Origin: Ignavibacteriae bacterium HGW-Ignavibacteriae-4
GTDB taxonomy: Bacteria > Bacteroidota > Ignavibacteria > Kapaibacteriales > UBA2268
DNA: 64,000 nucleotides
Assembly (NCBI GenBank): GCA_002839765.1
Contig: PGYR01000001.1
Coordinates: forward strand, 62,001-126,000
Reading direction: 5' to 3'
The notes under the pieces were generated by a model that searched no databases, was not told the DNA's origin, and worked only from the letters and a program-made list of their open reading frames with translations. Shown one piece after another: positions 8,956-20,761 of this stretch. A program made the translations under genes and the position numbers. Position 1 is the first letter of the stretch, and every line of letters starts with the position of its first letter.

Positions 8956-9450
8956 TTAGTTCTTAGGTAATTTTTCTATTTGATCTTTAGCCAGCTTTAA
9001 ATGGCTGTCTTTGTCTAACTTAATTTCCAATATCTTTTCAGTAGCAGTAACAACTAAATCAGCAACTTCATTTCTTAGCTCACTAATAGCATCATTTTTG
9101 CTTCTTTCTATTTCTCTCTTGGCTTCTTCGATTTTTTGTTGTTTACTCATTTCAGCTTCTTCATTTGCTTTTTGAATATTCTGTTCAGCCAAATTTCTAG
9201 CTGAAGTTAATATTTTAGAAACTTCTTTTTGAGTATTATCTAACTTCTGTTGGCTTTCTGCCAATAATATCTGAGCTTTTTCATTCAAAGCATTTGCTTC
9301 ATCTATTGCATTCTGGATACCTTCTTCTCTACTTTGAAGAGATTTCTTCATAGCGGGGAAAGCAAACTTAGAAAGAATAAATAGCAAAATACTGAAGTTA
9401 ATTACAGACCAGAACAGTAGTCCTGGATTTACGTTCATTATATCTTGCAT
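8956..9450 (-). CDS. atpF: ATP synthase F0 b subunit
   Basis: 164 residues. One N-terminal membrane helix (about 8-29, LLFWSVINFSILLFILSKFA) followed by a long charged, Ala/Glu/Lys/Gln-rich helix that forms the peripheral stalk dimer. Only one b-type gene is present, so a homodimer is expected. It is preceded by a perfect hairpin with a T run lying between atpE and this gene, which should lower read-through relative to atpE. Confidence 0.95.
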   Translation of the reverse strand: MQDIMNVNPGLLFWSVINFSILLFILSKFAFPAMKKSLQSREEGIQNAIDEANALNEKAQILLAESQQKLDNTQKEVSKILTSARNLAEQNIQKANEEAEMSKQQKIEEAKREIERSKNDAISELRNEVADLVVTATEKILEIKLDKDSHLKLAKDQIEKLPKN

Positions 9451-9480
9451 CTAAATACCATAGTTATATTTTATTCTTTT

Positions 9481-9511
9481 AAAAAAAGGAACTCCCAATA
9501 TTGGGAGTTCC
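9481..9511 (-). terminator. Perfect hairpin plus T run between atpE and atpF
   Basis: A 24-base perfect inverted repeat (positions 9488-9511; arms GGAACTCCCAAT/ATTGGGAGTTCC) is followed on the minus strand by seven T residues (9481-9487). It has the form of a strong intrinsic terminator, yet stands inside the operon 10 bases after the atpE stop and about 30 bases before the atpF start. It probably terminates a fraction of transcripts or protects the 3' end of an atpB-atpE message. Confidence 0.85.
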
Positions 9512-9521
9512 AAAATTACAA

Positions 9522-14935: not shown

Positions 14936-16189
14936 TTATTCTTTCACAAATTTGTTAGTGATTTTCTGATTGTTGGTTAGTATCAGCTCTAGTATATAGG
15001 TGCCTGTTGGATAAGATTTGAGATTTATATTCATTTGACCCGAATAGTTATCCTTTCTATTTTCTACTATATTGCCTTTTATATCACTGATAGCATAGCC
15101 GATAGCTTGCTTGCCTTGTAGGTCAATAGTAAGTTGATTGCTAGCTGGGTTAGGGTATATGTTAACTAGGTCATTTTCGTTCGTTTCTACACTCGTTGTT
15201 GTTTCGTTGAACTTGATTAGTCCTTCACTAGTACCAATCCATATATTGTTTTTAGAGTCAATGGCTAATGATAGTAAAGTTAGTAATTCATTTCCTGAAA
15301 TATTAAATGCATTATCAATACTGTACTCTATCCAATCTGTACCATTATATTTGTAAAGACTAATTGGAGTTGAACCATTAAATTTAGCTGTAATAGTCCA
15401 AACATTATTATTCTTATCAACCTTAGAGTCTTTCAAAAATATATTTTCTTTTCCTAATGGGGAATTTTTGTTATCAAAGTAAATCCAATTTCTGTCTTGT
15501 ATATTGTAATTTAGTAAAACACATTCTAGTCCAGTTCCAAGCCAAATATTATTATTCATATCCAATGAAATTGAATTAATACCAATTCGAGGGTTTTCTT
15601 TGAATAAACTGTCAAGAGAATCTAACTTAGATCCATCATAACTATATAATGCACTTGTATAACCGTCTATAGCAAACCATAAATTTTCATTTATATCAAT
15701 CAATAATTCAGTTGGATAATTTGGTCCACCGACTTGACCATTATATATCTCTTTTACTTTATCACCTTCTTTAGCATAAACATTAACTTGATTTACAAAA
15801 TAAAGAACACCATTCTCATCGAATACAAATTTATCGCATTTTATGTTTTCTTCTACAATTTCAAAATTCATAACATTCTCTTTGAATTCGAATATATGAT
15901 TACTTGAAACATATACTGAACTATCTTTCCCAATACTAATATGAGTAAACCCATAAGTCAAATTTGAATTACTTTGATTAAATTCGTGCCAACTATCTTG
16001 ACTTTGATTATACATAAAAATAGAATTCTTGGTATGAATCCAGAGATTATCATTCGAATCAACTACCAAATTGTCAATATAATCTACAGGTAAGTTTGAA
16101 TTTTCTGTTGTAAATATTTCCCAAGATTGAGCATAAGTAGTTGTTAGAGTTGAAATTGATATTATTAATATAATTAATAACTTTTTCAT
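14936..16189 (-). CDS. Secreted propeller protein with T9SS type A sorting domain
   Basis: 417 residues. Signal peptide about 1-20, ending TYAQ. The body holds repeats with the two-component-regulator-propeller pattern D-x-N-x-N-x-W-I/F (VDSNDNLWIHT, IDINENLWFAI, LDMNNNIWLGT, VDKNNNVWTI, IDSKNNIWIGT), about one per 45-60 residues, predicting a beta propeller. The final 75 residues start VNIYPNPASNQLTI and contain YPTGTYIL, a standard T9SS type A sorting domain, so the protein should be secreted across the outer membrane and cleaved or anchored. No enzyme motif is visible. Separate from ddl by about 105 bases. Confidence 0.9.
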   Translation of the reverse strand: MKKLLIILIISISTLTTTYAQSWEIFTTENSNLPVDYIDNLVVDSNDNLWIHTKNSIFMYNQSQDSWHEFNQSNSNLTYGFTHISIGKDSSVYVSSNHIFEFKENVMNFEIVEENIKCDKFVFDENGVLYFVNQVNVYAKEGDKVKEIYNGQVGGPNYPTELLIDINENLWFAIDGYTSALYSYDGSKLDSLDSLFKENPRIGINSISLDMNNNIWLGTGLECVLLNYNIQDRNWIYFDNKNSPLGKENIFLKDSKVDKNNNVWTITAKFNGSTPISLYKYNGTDWIEYSIDNAFNISGNELLTLLSLAIDSKNNIWIGTSEGLIKFNETTTSVETNENDLVNIYPNPASNQLTIDLQGKQAIGYAISDIKGNIVENRKDNYSGQMNINLKSYPTGTYILELILTNNQKITNKFVKE

Positions 16190-16328
16190 TGATACACCTG
16201 TAAAGTTTAATCAAATAGCTTAATACAAAAATAATTAATAATTCATAGAATAAATATTCAAAACTAAGATTTAGAAACTTGTTTAAACAATGTGCAAAAT
16301 TCAATGCTATTTTTAAATAATAATTTAG

Positions 16329-16336
16329 TAATTTTG
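16329..16336 (+). promoter_or_regulatory. Candidate -7 box for carAB
   Basis: TAATTTTG matches TAnnTTTG. A TTTG is not seen at the proper upstream distance. Initiation about 7 bases downstream (near 16343) would place the start just before the structured leader of carA. Confidence 0.45.
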
Positions 16337-16343
16337 ATTTTAA

Positions 16344-16421
16344 TGAATGCACCAAGGAAATATTTCCTATTACCCGAATGATATCCAACCTAATAAGTGG
16401 ATGCCTTTCGGGTTTTTTTTT
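16344..16421 (+). promoter_or_regulatory. Structured carAB leader ending in an intrinsic terminator (attenuator candidate)
   Basis: The leader holds a small palindrome AGGAAATATTTCCT (16355-16368). It is followed by an outer stem ACCCGAA (16372-16378) with TTCGGGT (16407-16413), an inner stem ATCCA/TGGAT inside the loop, and nine T residues (16413-16421), 21 bases before the carA start. No plus-strand gene lies upstream that this terminator could serve, since the preceding gene runs the other way. It therefore probably controls carAB by termination and antitermination. The sensing signal is not identifiable: I see no leader peptide rich in Arg codons and no convincing PyrR site. Confidence 0.7.
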
Positions 16422-16442
16422 AAAAACTAAAAGCGTAACTAG

Positions 16443-17555
16443 ATGAAAAACAATAAAAAAGCATTGATAATGTTAGAAAATGGCTACTACGAATATGGTA
16501 GAGCATTTGCTAGTGAAGGTACAAATTTCTCGGAGTTTGTTTTCAATACTTCTATGACTGGCTACGAAGAAATATTAACTGACCCATCTTATAAAGGTCA
16601 GACTGTACTTTTTACGAACCCTTTGATCGGTAACTACGGAATAACAAATGAAGATTTCCAATCTGAAAAAATTCAAGCTGAGGGAATTTTAATACGTGAG
16701 TACTCAAGAATAGCTAGTAATCACCGTTCAAAAATAGACTTGGCTTCATATCTCGAAAAAACTAATACTTTTGGGATAGATAGAATAGATACAAGAGCAT
16801 TTACTAAAGTAATCAGACAATTTGGAGCAATGAAAGGCGGGATAACTACAGAAGTACTTGACCCAGTTGAGTTTCTAAAACAAGTAAAAGCATCACCATC
16901 AATTTCAGATGTTGATTTATACAAACAAGTTATTTCTGATAAAGTACAAGTATTTGAAGGAAATTCTTCAGTTAAAGAAAAAATAATAGCAGTTGATTTT
17001 GGAATCAAACGTAATATAATAAAAGACTTACAGTTTAAATTTAATAAAATATATCTAGTACCCTTTGATGATAATTTTGAAGCTAATATTGCTAATTTAG
17101 ACTATGATGGAGTTTTCCTATCAAATGGACCGGGTGACCCGAGAATAGTAAAAGGAATAGATAAATTTATTAAACAATTTGCTGAGAATAATATTCCTTT
17201 AATAGCAATATGCTTCGGTCATCAATTAATAGGTCAGGCCTTCGGGCTGAAAACGATTAAGTTACCTTTTGGTCACCACGGTGGCAATCACCCAGTAAAG
17301 TATTTCGACAATGGCAGAGTATATATAACTGCTCAAAACCATAATTATGCAATATCTAACGAGAGTCTTGACACCAGCAAGGATTGGGAAATGACATGGG
17401 TAAATCTATACGATCATACAGTTGAAGGAATGAAACATAAACACTTACCAATTAACTGTATTCAATTCCACCCAGAAGCATCGCCTGGACCAAGAGAAGC
17501 AAACGAAAAAGTATTTGAAGATTTTTATAAAACAGTAGCAAAACAGGATAAATAA
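16443..17555 (+). CDS. carA: Carbamoyl-phosphate synthase, small (glutaminase) subunit
   Basis: 370 residues, normal length. It releases ammonia from glutamine for carbamoyl phosphate, feeding pyrimidine and arginine synthesis. The N-terminal CarA domain ([33 protein letters not shown]) is followed by a class I glutamine amidotransferase domain. The triad is visible: Cys257 in AICFGHQ (Phe replaces the common Leu after Cys), His343 and Glu345 in FHPEASPGP. The ATG follows a structured leader with a terminator. Its TAA overlaps the carB ATG by one base. Confidence 0.98.
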
Positions 17556-20500
17556 TGCCGTTAAGACAAGACATCAAAAGAATATTAGTAATAGGTGCAG
17601 GCCCTATTGTAATAGGACAAGCTGGAGAATTTGATTATTCTGGTTCACAAGCTGTAAAAGCTCTGAAAAAATTAGGCTACTATGTGGTAGTTATAAACAG
17701 TAATCCTGCAACTGTAATGACAGACCCCGAGATAGCTAATAAAACTTATATAGAACCAATTACCAATGGAATAATAGAACAGATAATCCAAAGAGATAAA
17801 ATCGACGCGATACTACCTACGGTTGGTGGTCAGACAGCGTTAAATGCAGCTCTTGACTTAGAGAAAGAGGGTATATTAAAGAAATATAATATTGAGCTAT
17901 TAGGCGTAAATATAAAATCTATAAATATAGCCGAGGGAAGACGAGAGTTTAAACAAGCTATGGATGAGATAGGTTTGCTTTCACCTGAAGGTGAAATTAT
18001 AAACACTTATGAAGATGCTATTGCTTTCGCAGAACACCTAGATTTTCCTATCATCGTTCGACCTTCATACACTTTAGGTGGAACAGGAGGCGGTGTCGCA
18101 GAGAATATGGAAGATTTTAAAAGAATAGCGAGACAAGGGCTTGATTTATCACCAATAAGTGAGATTCTTGTTGAACGTTCTTTAATCGGTTGGAAAGAAT
18201 ACGAATTTGAAGTTATGCGAGATATAGCTGATAACGTAGTTATAGTAGCATCAGTAGAGAATTTCGACCCAATGGGTGTACACACTGGTGATAGTATAAC
18301 AGTTGCCCCAGCTCAAACTCTGACAGATGAAGAATATCAGACTTTACGTGATTATTCAATTGCCATTATTAGAAAAGTAGGAGTTGCGACTGGTGGATCT
18401 AATATACAGTTCGGGGTTAATCCAGCGAATGGTGAAGTACGAGTAATTGAAATGAATCCACGAGTTTCTCGTAGTTCAGCATTAGTTTCTAAAGCAACTG
18501 GTTATCCAATAGCAAAAATTGCTGCTCAGTTAGCAGTTGGTCTTACTTTGGATGAGATTAACAATGAGATTACTAAAACAACTCCAGTGTCGTTCGAACC
18601 ATCATTAGATTACATAATTGTAAAAATCCCTAGATGGGATTTTGAAAAGTTTAAAGTACCATCGAATCTAACTACACAGATGAAATCTGTGGGTGAAGTT
18701 ATGTCGATTGGTTCTAACTTCAGGGAAGCTTTCCAGAAAGCATTCCGTTCTTTAGAGATAGGAGTTGATGGACTTGATTACAAAGGTTTAGATAAATTCG
18801 ATGACGAGTATTTAATAAATAAGCTGGTTGTCCCTACTCCAATGAGACCATTCTTCATTAAAGAAGCATTCAAAAGGGGGATGAGTTTAGAAGAAATACA
18901 AAAACACACTAATATAGACCCTTGGTTCTTAGATAATATACTTGAAATAGTAGAAGTTGAGAAAGAAATATCAGAGAATACATTTGAAAATTTAGATGCA
19001 GATACGTTAAGAAGTTATAAACTACATGGCTTCTCAGATTCTCAAATAGGCAGATTATTAAATAAAGATACTGAAGTAATTAGAGCTAAACGAAAGGAAT
19101 TAAAGGTATTACCTACATATAAAAAAGTAGATACATGCGCAGCCGAATTTGAAGCACATACTCCTTATTATTACTCAACATACATGAAAGAAAATGAGAG
19201 TTTTTCAGCAGATAGAAAGAAAATCATAGTATTAGGTGGAGGACCATTCAGAATTGGTCAGGGAATTGAATTTGATTATTGTGCTTCTCAAGCATCTATG
19301 ATATTGAAGGATATGGGCATAGAAACTATTATGATTAATTGTAATCCTGAAACGGTTTCTACCGATTATGATACTTCTGATAAATTATATTTTGAGCCAG
19401 TCTTTTTAGAAGATGTGATGAATATAATCGATCTAGAAAAACCAGATGGAGTGATACTACAGTTAGGTGGGCAAACCCCATTAAAGCTTTCTAAGGCACT
19501 TGAGGATGCAGGAGTCAAGATACTTGGTACAAGCCAAAGTAACATTGATAGGGCAGAGGATAGAGGCCGTTTTATTGAAATGTTAGACGAACTACAAATA
19601 GCATATCCGGCTGGTGGAACAGCTAACTCAATAGAGGAAGCTACAAAAATTGCTCTTAATATTGGCTTCCCTGTAATTGTTAGACCATCGTATGTTCTCG
19701 GTGGAAGAGGTATGGCAGTAGTATATGATGAGGTTGATTTGCAACATTTCATAATAGAAGCTGCAAAAGTCAACGAAGATCACCCAGTTTTAATAGATAA
19801 ATTCTTAGAACATGCTTTCGAAGTGGATGTCGATGCATTAGGTGATGGTAAATCGGGTGTGATTGCAGGTATTATGCAACATATAGAAGAAGCTGGAGTA
19901 CACTCTGGTGATAGTTCTTCTGTTTTACCTACTTACTTAGTTGAACCACATATTGTTGATAAGATAAGATTCGCAACATATAAAATCATTGAAAAATTAG
20001 AAATAATTGGATTCATTAATATCCAATTTGCAGTTTATAGAGATAATGTATTCGTTATCGAGGTAAATCCTAGAGCATCTAGAACAGTTCCATTCGTATC
20101 AAAATCAAATGGTATAGCACTTACTAAAGTTGCTGTTAAACTTATGTTAGGTGAAAAAATCAGCGATATTAAAATGCCAAACCCTGGATTTATGGGACAC
20201 TACACGGTAAAATGTCCGGTGTTTTCTTTCAGTAAATTCCCAGGTGTAGATACTGTACTTGGACCTGAGATGCGTTCAACAGGTGAAGTTATGGGAATAA
20301 GTGAATTCTTTGGAGAGGCTTATGTCAAATCTCAACTAGCGGCTGGCAATCATTTACCTAAATCTGGAAATGTCTTTATCTCTGTTAATGATTTTGATAA
20401 ACAAGAAGTATTACCAGTAGCTAGAAGATTAATCGAATTAGGTTATGAACTTTGGGCTACATTAGGTACTCATTCTGCTTTGCAAGTTGCTGGAATAAAA

Positions 20501-20761
20501 TCAAATCTGATACCGAAAATTGGTGCTGGTAACCCGAATGTAGTAGAGAAGATCCAAAGTGGTGATATAAACTTAATTATAAATACTCCTTTAGGACGTA
20601 AAGCTTATCAAGATGATTTATCTATTAGAGAAGCAGCTCTTCAGAAGAAAATACTATGTATTACAACTATCCCTGCAGCCAAGGCAGCAGTTGATGGAAT
20701 GGATTGGTTACAAAAAAACCAGATAACTATTTTTGGTCCCATTTTAAATCGTACTTGGTAA
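17555..20761 (+). CDS. carB: Carbamoyl-phosphate synthase, large subunit
   Basis: 1068 residues, close to the usual 1073. Two homologous halves are visible, each with a Rossmann-like start ([20 protein letters not shown] near 13-33; [20 protein letters not shown] in the second half) and an ATP-grasp domain ([23 protein letters not shown]). The first half phosphorylates bicarbonate and the second carbamate. The C-terminal MGS-like domain ([16 protein letters not shown] onward) is the allosteric region in E. coli. Translation is coupled to carA by the TAATG overlap. Confidence 0.99.

Follow-up and report, generated by a model that had tools for sequence, protein, structure and literature searches.

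A short reading frame entering a terminator hairpin upstream of carAB in Ignavibacteriota: a candidate attenuator

The carAB locus and its leader

The window analysed here, a 64-kb stretch (64,000 nt) of a 3.36-Mb assembly, carries carA at 16443-17555 (TIGR01368, 414.6 bits against a cut-off of 307.35) and carB at 17555-20761 (TIGR01369, 1477 bits against 1027; both NCBIfam) on the plus strand. The gene upstream of carA (14936-16189) lies on the minus strand and is thus divergent, with a TAnnTTTG box of its own 36 nt before its start. On the carAB side, a -7 promoter box, TAATTTTG, is located at 16329-16336 on the plus strand. TAnnTTTG is a real signal in this genome's window: 13 boxes occur in the 120-nt stretches upstream of the 46 gene models, as compared to a mean of 3.8 and a maximum of 10 in 200 shuffles. 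The accessible text of a Flavobacterium study places the box at -12 to -5 (PMC9723704), and by this rule transcription of carAB would start near 16341-16342, directly before an ATG at 16343. The leader would then measure about 100 nt, a length proposed in an earlier sequence-only reading of this DNA, which holds if the start indeed lies 5-6 nt after the box. On the minus strand elsewhere in the window (approximately 9470-9520), a TAATTTTG box is directly followed by the perfect hairpin GGAACTCCCAATATTGGGAGTTCC and a T7 run, ahead of the gene at 8956-9450.

Folding of the carA leader reveals a terminator hairpin at 16372-16413 on the plus strand, with the base ACCCGAA/TTCGGGT and the inner stem TATCCA/TGGATG, followed by a run of nine T (16413-16421). 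The stretch 16369-16423 folds with -16.2 kcal/mol (z -3.55; as good in 1 of 200 shuffles), and for 16342-16442 the z value is -3.29. A simple terminator scan of the window did not list this terminator; an interrupted stem and a 10-nt loop are the probable reasons. Terminator-like sites within 150 nt upstream were found for only 4 of the 46 gene models, and carA is the sole one of these four genes with a divergent upstream neighbour. Since that neighbour lies on the minus strand, the carA-leader terminator does not mark the end of any other known gene. A palindrome at 16354-16367, AGGAAATATTTCCT, folds into an early 5-bp hairpin of about -3 kcal/mol. The sequence-only reading had thus correctly recognised the box, the palindrome, the nine-T terminator at 16372-16421 and the orientation of the upstream gene; the early hairpin it described is present, but on its own it is not significant, as 7% of shuffles of the leader from genome G000 place a similar perfect hairpin beside the terminator.

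That reading had overlooked a short open reading frame (ORF) of 12 codons at 16343-16381 on the plus strand, which contains the palindrome and encodes MNAPRKYFLLPE (ATG AAT GCA CCA AGG AAA TAT TTC CTA TTA CCC GAA TGA). Its ATG lies 6 nt after the -7 box, and the start codon would therefore occupy about +1 to +3 of the predicted transcript. At its base, the terminator's 5' arm is made up of the last two sense codons, CCC GAA, with the stop codon next to them inside the arm. An ATG at exactly this spacing, open into the stem, is found in 1.0% of shuffles for G000 and in 0.34% for G019, a genome of another genus, while the rates are 13% and 2.8%, respectively, if the ATG, likewise open into the stem, may lie at any of the initial ten positions; the leaders of the two genomes being homologous, their rates do not multiply freely.

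Neither the best nor the near-best folds of the leader contain an antiterminator, and a pairing of the CCTATTA segment with TAATAAGTGG, drawn by eye, was discarded because it is absent from the 12 best suboptimal folds. With no competing antiterminator fold, expression of carAB requires some other means of covering the stem and keeping its 5' arm single-stranded, most simply a translating ribosome. A ribosome at the stop codon of an ORF that ends in the 5' arm would, given its usual footprint size, cover the arm.

Conservation and distribution of the leader

Four genomes of the genus (g1) were searched, and three of them (G000, G002 and G003) carry carA; two congeneric records are Ignavibacteriota MAGs. 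The remaining genome, G001, gave no carA match, and the best E value of a leader search in it was 0.085. Across the three genomes with carA, 77 of the 79 columns of the leader (16343-16421) are identical, including loops and unpaired stretches, although equal agreement (77) is attained by the best 79-nt stretches within the coding sequence of carA. The ORF is identical in 39 of 39 nt, the T9 run is also present in G002 and G003, and the -7 box reads TAGTTTTG in G002. Identity to G000 at fourfold-degenerate carA sites is 0.563 for G003 and 0.468 for G002, and under these rates the agreement of the leaders has P values of about 1e-18 and 4e-23. In the stretch beside the divergent gene, 34 of 101 columns agree. 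Both differences within the leader respect the fold, one being a loop deletion and the other a C-to-T substitution that converts a C-G pair of the inner stem into T-G in the G002 terminator. The other long frame, from the ATG at 16347, is not kept, with lengths of 27, 32 and 13 codons. As the three congeneric ORFs are identical, constraint on coding is indistinguishable from constraint on the RNA. The carA gene of G003 (L003, from 1501) has one in-frame TAA near codon 78, where its relatives are open, reflecting either an assembly error or a broken gene.

In G019, which belongs to genus g17 and whose carA is 69% identical, the leader keeps the box (TATTTTTG), the 6-nt spacing, the ATG, a 13-bp hairpin with the base CCCGAA/TTCGGG and a T8 run. 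An ORF encoding MNLKKSIKLSFLKEPEVNL lies at the same place and, with another sequence, again enters the stem in frame, such that both lineages have CCC GAA in frame and a stop codon in the 5' arm or loop. In sequence, this hairpin departs from that of g1 in its upper stem and loop, and the peptides encoded by the two ORFs differ almost wholly. By reading, the G019 leader contains a U6 tract and the g1 leader no such run. We rejected the early hairpin as a conserved element, since the 5-bp hairpin that can be drawn for G019 reaches only -0.4 to -1.2 kcal/mol, falls outside the best fold of that leader and arises in 28% of shuffles. The sequence-only reading had made conservation of both hairpins in relatives the touchstone of its proposal; the terminator is kept across the genera, the early hairpin only within the genus.

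The box and the terminator alone would account for the fold and the T9 run if the element were an unregulated, partial terminator that only sets the level of carAB or produces a short RNA of about 80 nt. We regard this as improbable because conservation runs through the ORF and the hairpin loops, whereas the terminators preceding pyrB in the same genomes, at a comparable spot, drift in their loops and spacers (by reading). The invariance of loops and unpaired stretches would be explained if the leader RNA were read by a protein or small molecule, with a factor that binds the palindrome hairpin, the internal loop or the loop TAATAAG setting the terminator and the ORF being incidental. The chance rate of 13% for the ORF in G000 fits this explanation, as does the observation that the RNA alone gives no antiterminator. 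On the other hand, only about 30 nt are available ahead of the terminator, the loop, upper stem and early hairpin all differ in G019, and no PyrR was found among the phosphoribosyltransferases described below. Rfam likewise gives only a tRNA at the gathering cut-off in the 64-kb window, the best match of the leader itself being SdsR_RyeB (E 0.63, 17.6 of 38 bits), below that cut-off. Such an RNA sensor is unlikely, though by no means far-fetched.

The full conservation of the peptide within the genus and the position of the stop codon inside the 5' arm would also be compatible with nascent-peptide arrest, in which MNAPRKYFLLPE in the exit tunnel, together with a metabolite, would stall the ribosome at CCC GAA UGA and open the terminator. 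Arrest peptides elsewhere act by such stalling. A faint FL-x-PE likeness extends to G019, where Phe and Leu are encoded by different codons (TTC CTA and TTT TTA in the two leaders). Apart from this likeness, however, the peptides differ between the genera, the genus offers no synonymous changes that would reveal selection at the peptide level, and 12 residues are very short for spanning the exit tunnel. We consider arrest decidedly improbable. Taken more broadly, the carAB leader might contain a sequence-specific sensor that acts through the terminator stem, be it an arrest peptide of very few residues or a new, small RNA element binding a ligand related to pyrimidines or carbamoyl phosphate; this arrangement, too, is rather unlikely. 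The fungal arginine attenuator peptide sits on CPA1, which is homologous to carA, and the peptide version, if true, would be its bacterial counterpart.

To describe the distribution of the element, 54 genomes of the family were searched, of which 25 have carA at an E value of 1e-60 or better and 24 of these a readable upstream stretch. The element is present at 4 of the 24 readable loci, three belonging to g1 and one to g17, and a weakly supported branch of the carA tree (69/81) separates these four rows from all others. A scan for the arrangement box-terminator-carA covered 121 carA loci, 30 and 11 from two carA searches and 80 from class members of other orders (80 of the 83 with a carA match, with G107, G121 and G153 left out; genomes of the same order that gave no carA locus in the search fall outside this set). 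The literal arrangement occurs at 7 of the 121 loci (L002-L005, L042, L093 and L134), but at L093 and L134 the box reads by eye as lying inside the upstream gene, and the 80 further class members contain no convincing case of the element. L045 was dropped from the count because its contig leaves only 6 nt. Also uncounted are L037 and L044, which have terminators near carA and no TAnnTTTG box, and L007, with a terminator at -92 that is below the scan filter.

The 200 nt before carA at L042 (G024) contain a box, a 17-codon ORF and a T9 terminator 43 nt before carA, with the stop codon of the ORF in the 5' arm; the upstream gene points the same way as carA. This locus possibly represents a separate, independent attenuator. 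Terminators close to carA at L091, L093, L099, L110 and L136, all from class relatives, were interpreted as the end of the upstream gene; with their ends 6-36 nt from carA, hardly any space remains for a promoter. L118 and L121 (G120 and G189, of the same genus) have a terminator-like hairpin about 70 nt upstream of carA and share the identical stretch GATGCAGATCACATGC, while their stems differ. In the literature we searched, which lay largely outside subscription papers, no attenuator of carAB is described for Ignavibacteriota or Bacteroidota.

Regulators, known systems and the likely signal

Four phosphoribosyltransferase hits (PF00156) were obtained in G000, two scored by NCBIfam as Apt and PyrE and the other two appearing Prs-like and ComF-like by eye. 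No PyrR is among them and Rfam gave no PyrR-type RNA match, on which grounds PyrR control was rejected; the gene-level result supports the earlier statement that no PyrR-like site is seen. ArgR control was rejected as well, since PF01316 was found in 0 of 4 genomes and in 9 of 14 controls. UTP-dependent reiterative initiation at the TTTT before the ATG was discarded because the T run precedes the likely start.

That the leader peptide is not Arg-rich, as the sequence-only reading had stated, is borne out by the ORFs: neither G000 nor G019 has a cluster of Arg codons, and the G019 ORF lacks Arg codons altogether. Arginine control of the trp type, with ribosomes stalling at Arg codons, could rely on a single codon in g1, the rare AGG (2.7 per 1000) at position 5. 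This appears extremely improbable, given the G019 ORF and the missing antiterminator, and a stall at AGG would presumably allow the terminator stem to form, the opposite of what end-product control demands. Carbamoyltransferases (PF02729) number two in G000 and G003 and one in G002 and G019; those of G000 are pyrB and an N-acetylornithine carbamoyltransferase (NCBIfam), and the single one of G019 is ATCase-like by eye. As the same leader occurs in G002, where no second carbamoyltransferase was hit, pyrimidine control is likelier than arginine control, although the second enzyme may be missing from G019 and G002 simply through incompleteness (completeness 94% and 100%).

Terminator-based control of pyrimidine operons is known from the PyrR-controlled pyr attenuators, which the carA leader resembles in being terminator-based and from which it differs in having no Rfam match and no PyrR gene. 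Unlike a trp-type attenuator, it shows neither a run of control codons nor an alternative fold. A closer likeness is found in the pyrBI attenuator of E. coli, where a short ORF overlaps an intrinsic terminator, there is no antiterminator, and a U-rich pause tract is present, with low UTP leading to read-through. Both leaders have a short ORF overlapping the terminator, no antiterminator fold and an operon of the pyrimidine pathway. They differ in that the pyrBI ORF runs past the stem whereas the 12-codon ORF ends within it, that the gene here is carA, and that a U-rich pause tract, by reading, is not seen in the g1 leader, although G019 has the U6 run.

In Pseudomonas aeruginosa, the available part of PMC4997734 reports a leader peptide from the carA promoter region and ascribes pyrimidine control of carAB to attenuation, and the title of Kwon et al. 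(1994), as cited there, states that no untranslated region exists. The operon is the same, and the distance of 6 nt between -7 box and ATG in g1 and G019 would place a candidate leader-peptide gene at the 5' end of the transcript; the differences are the phylum and that in P. aeruginosa arginine also acts transcriptionally, whereas no ArgR was found here. The carAB operon of E. coli, with promoters P1 and P2, shares the genes and the two end-product pathways, but according to the text available of PMC6245113 it is controlled by ArgR at P2 and by several factors together with UTP-dependent reiterative initiation at P1, and attenuation is said there to be absent at P2 and at the arginine genes. 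The carA motif SRC-12-1 of Betaproteobacteria, mostly Polynucleobacter, is likewise a structured leader immediately before carA with a proposed cis-regulatory role; it consists of one extended imperfect hairpin, a possible riboswitch, and is set apart by its description, which in the portion of PMC8632094 at hand mentions neither a terminator nor an ORF.

Ribosome coupling as a possible mode of action

The arrangement of box, terminator and carA, strongly conserved in all 3 carA-bearing genomes of the genus and repeated in the same order in a second genus, gives good support to the earlier proposal of a carAB attenuator, and the leader is a real and lineage-restricted one, probably functional. 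The suggestion of a new attenuator or cis-RNA class fares less well, as the overlapping short ORF provides a known mechanism; the layout is rare but of a known kind, ribosome-coupled attenuation. Our preferred reading, held tentatively and at slightly less than an even chance, is such a ribosome-coupled transcription attenuator of the pyrBI or Pseudomonas carAB sort, acting on a nearly leaderless transcript and probably under pyrimidine control. Transcription would start 5-6 nt after the -7 box, so that at most 1-2 nt of the transcript precede the AUG, and ribosomes would load on the nearly leaderless 12-codon ORF. A ribosome following closely behind RNA polymerase would arrive at CCC GAA UGA within the terminator's 5' arm and permit read-through into carA, whereas with a polymerase running ahead the hairpin would form and transcription would stop at the T9 run. 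The natural signal would be pyrimidine supply, with low UTP slowing the polymerase and coupling it to the ribosome as in pyrBI. Through this leader, carbamoyl phosphate synthesis would thus probably be gated by ribosomes.

Several observations speak against ribosome-coupled attenuation. The less strict of the chance rates for the ORF in G000 is 13%, the g1 leader has no counterpart of the pyrBI pause tract, and no comparable leader was found in the stretches viewed before pyrB, pyrD, pyrE and pyrF of these genomes (the starts of pyrD and pyrF being uncertain). Furthermore, occlusion by a ribosome needs no particular leader sequence, yet the ORF is invariant within the genus, and the peptides are almost wholly different between the genera. 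This conservation beyond the need of simple occlusion keeps a sequence-specific sensor, RNA or peptide, in play. The element is known from 4 genomes, and leaderless mRNAs are rare in mapped Bacteroidota, making up only 3.7-5.5% of transcripts in the accessible parts of two studies (PMC7366714, PMC9723704). If ribosome-coupled attenuation is nevertheless correct, carAB would be controlled by a leader ORF on a transcript that is nearly leaderless, as a parallel to Pseudomonas in another phylum, and in genomes where no arginine repressor and no PyrR were found. The leader would then offer a small system for testing how transcription and translation are coupled outside the Proteobacteria.

Further upstream, a block at 16289-16315 on the plus strand is about as conserved as the leader, with 25 of 27 columns identical in the three genomes. 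G000, G002 and G003 each contain a single copy of its 24-nt core, which is absent from G001 and G019 when up to 3 mismatches are allowed. From its position and conservation, this 27-nt block is a possible operator for some factor or a possible -33 region.
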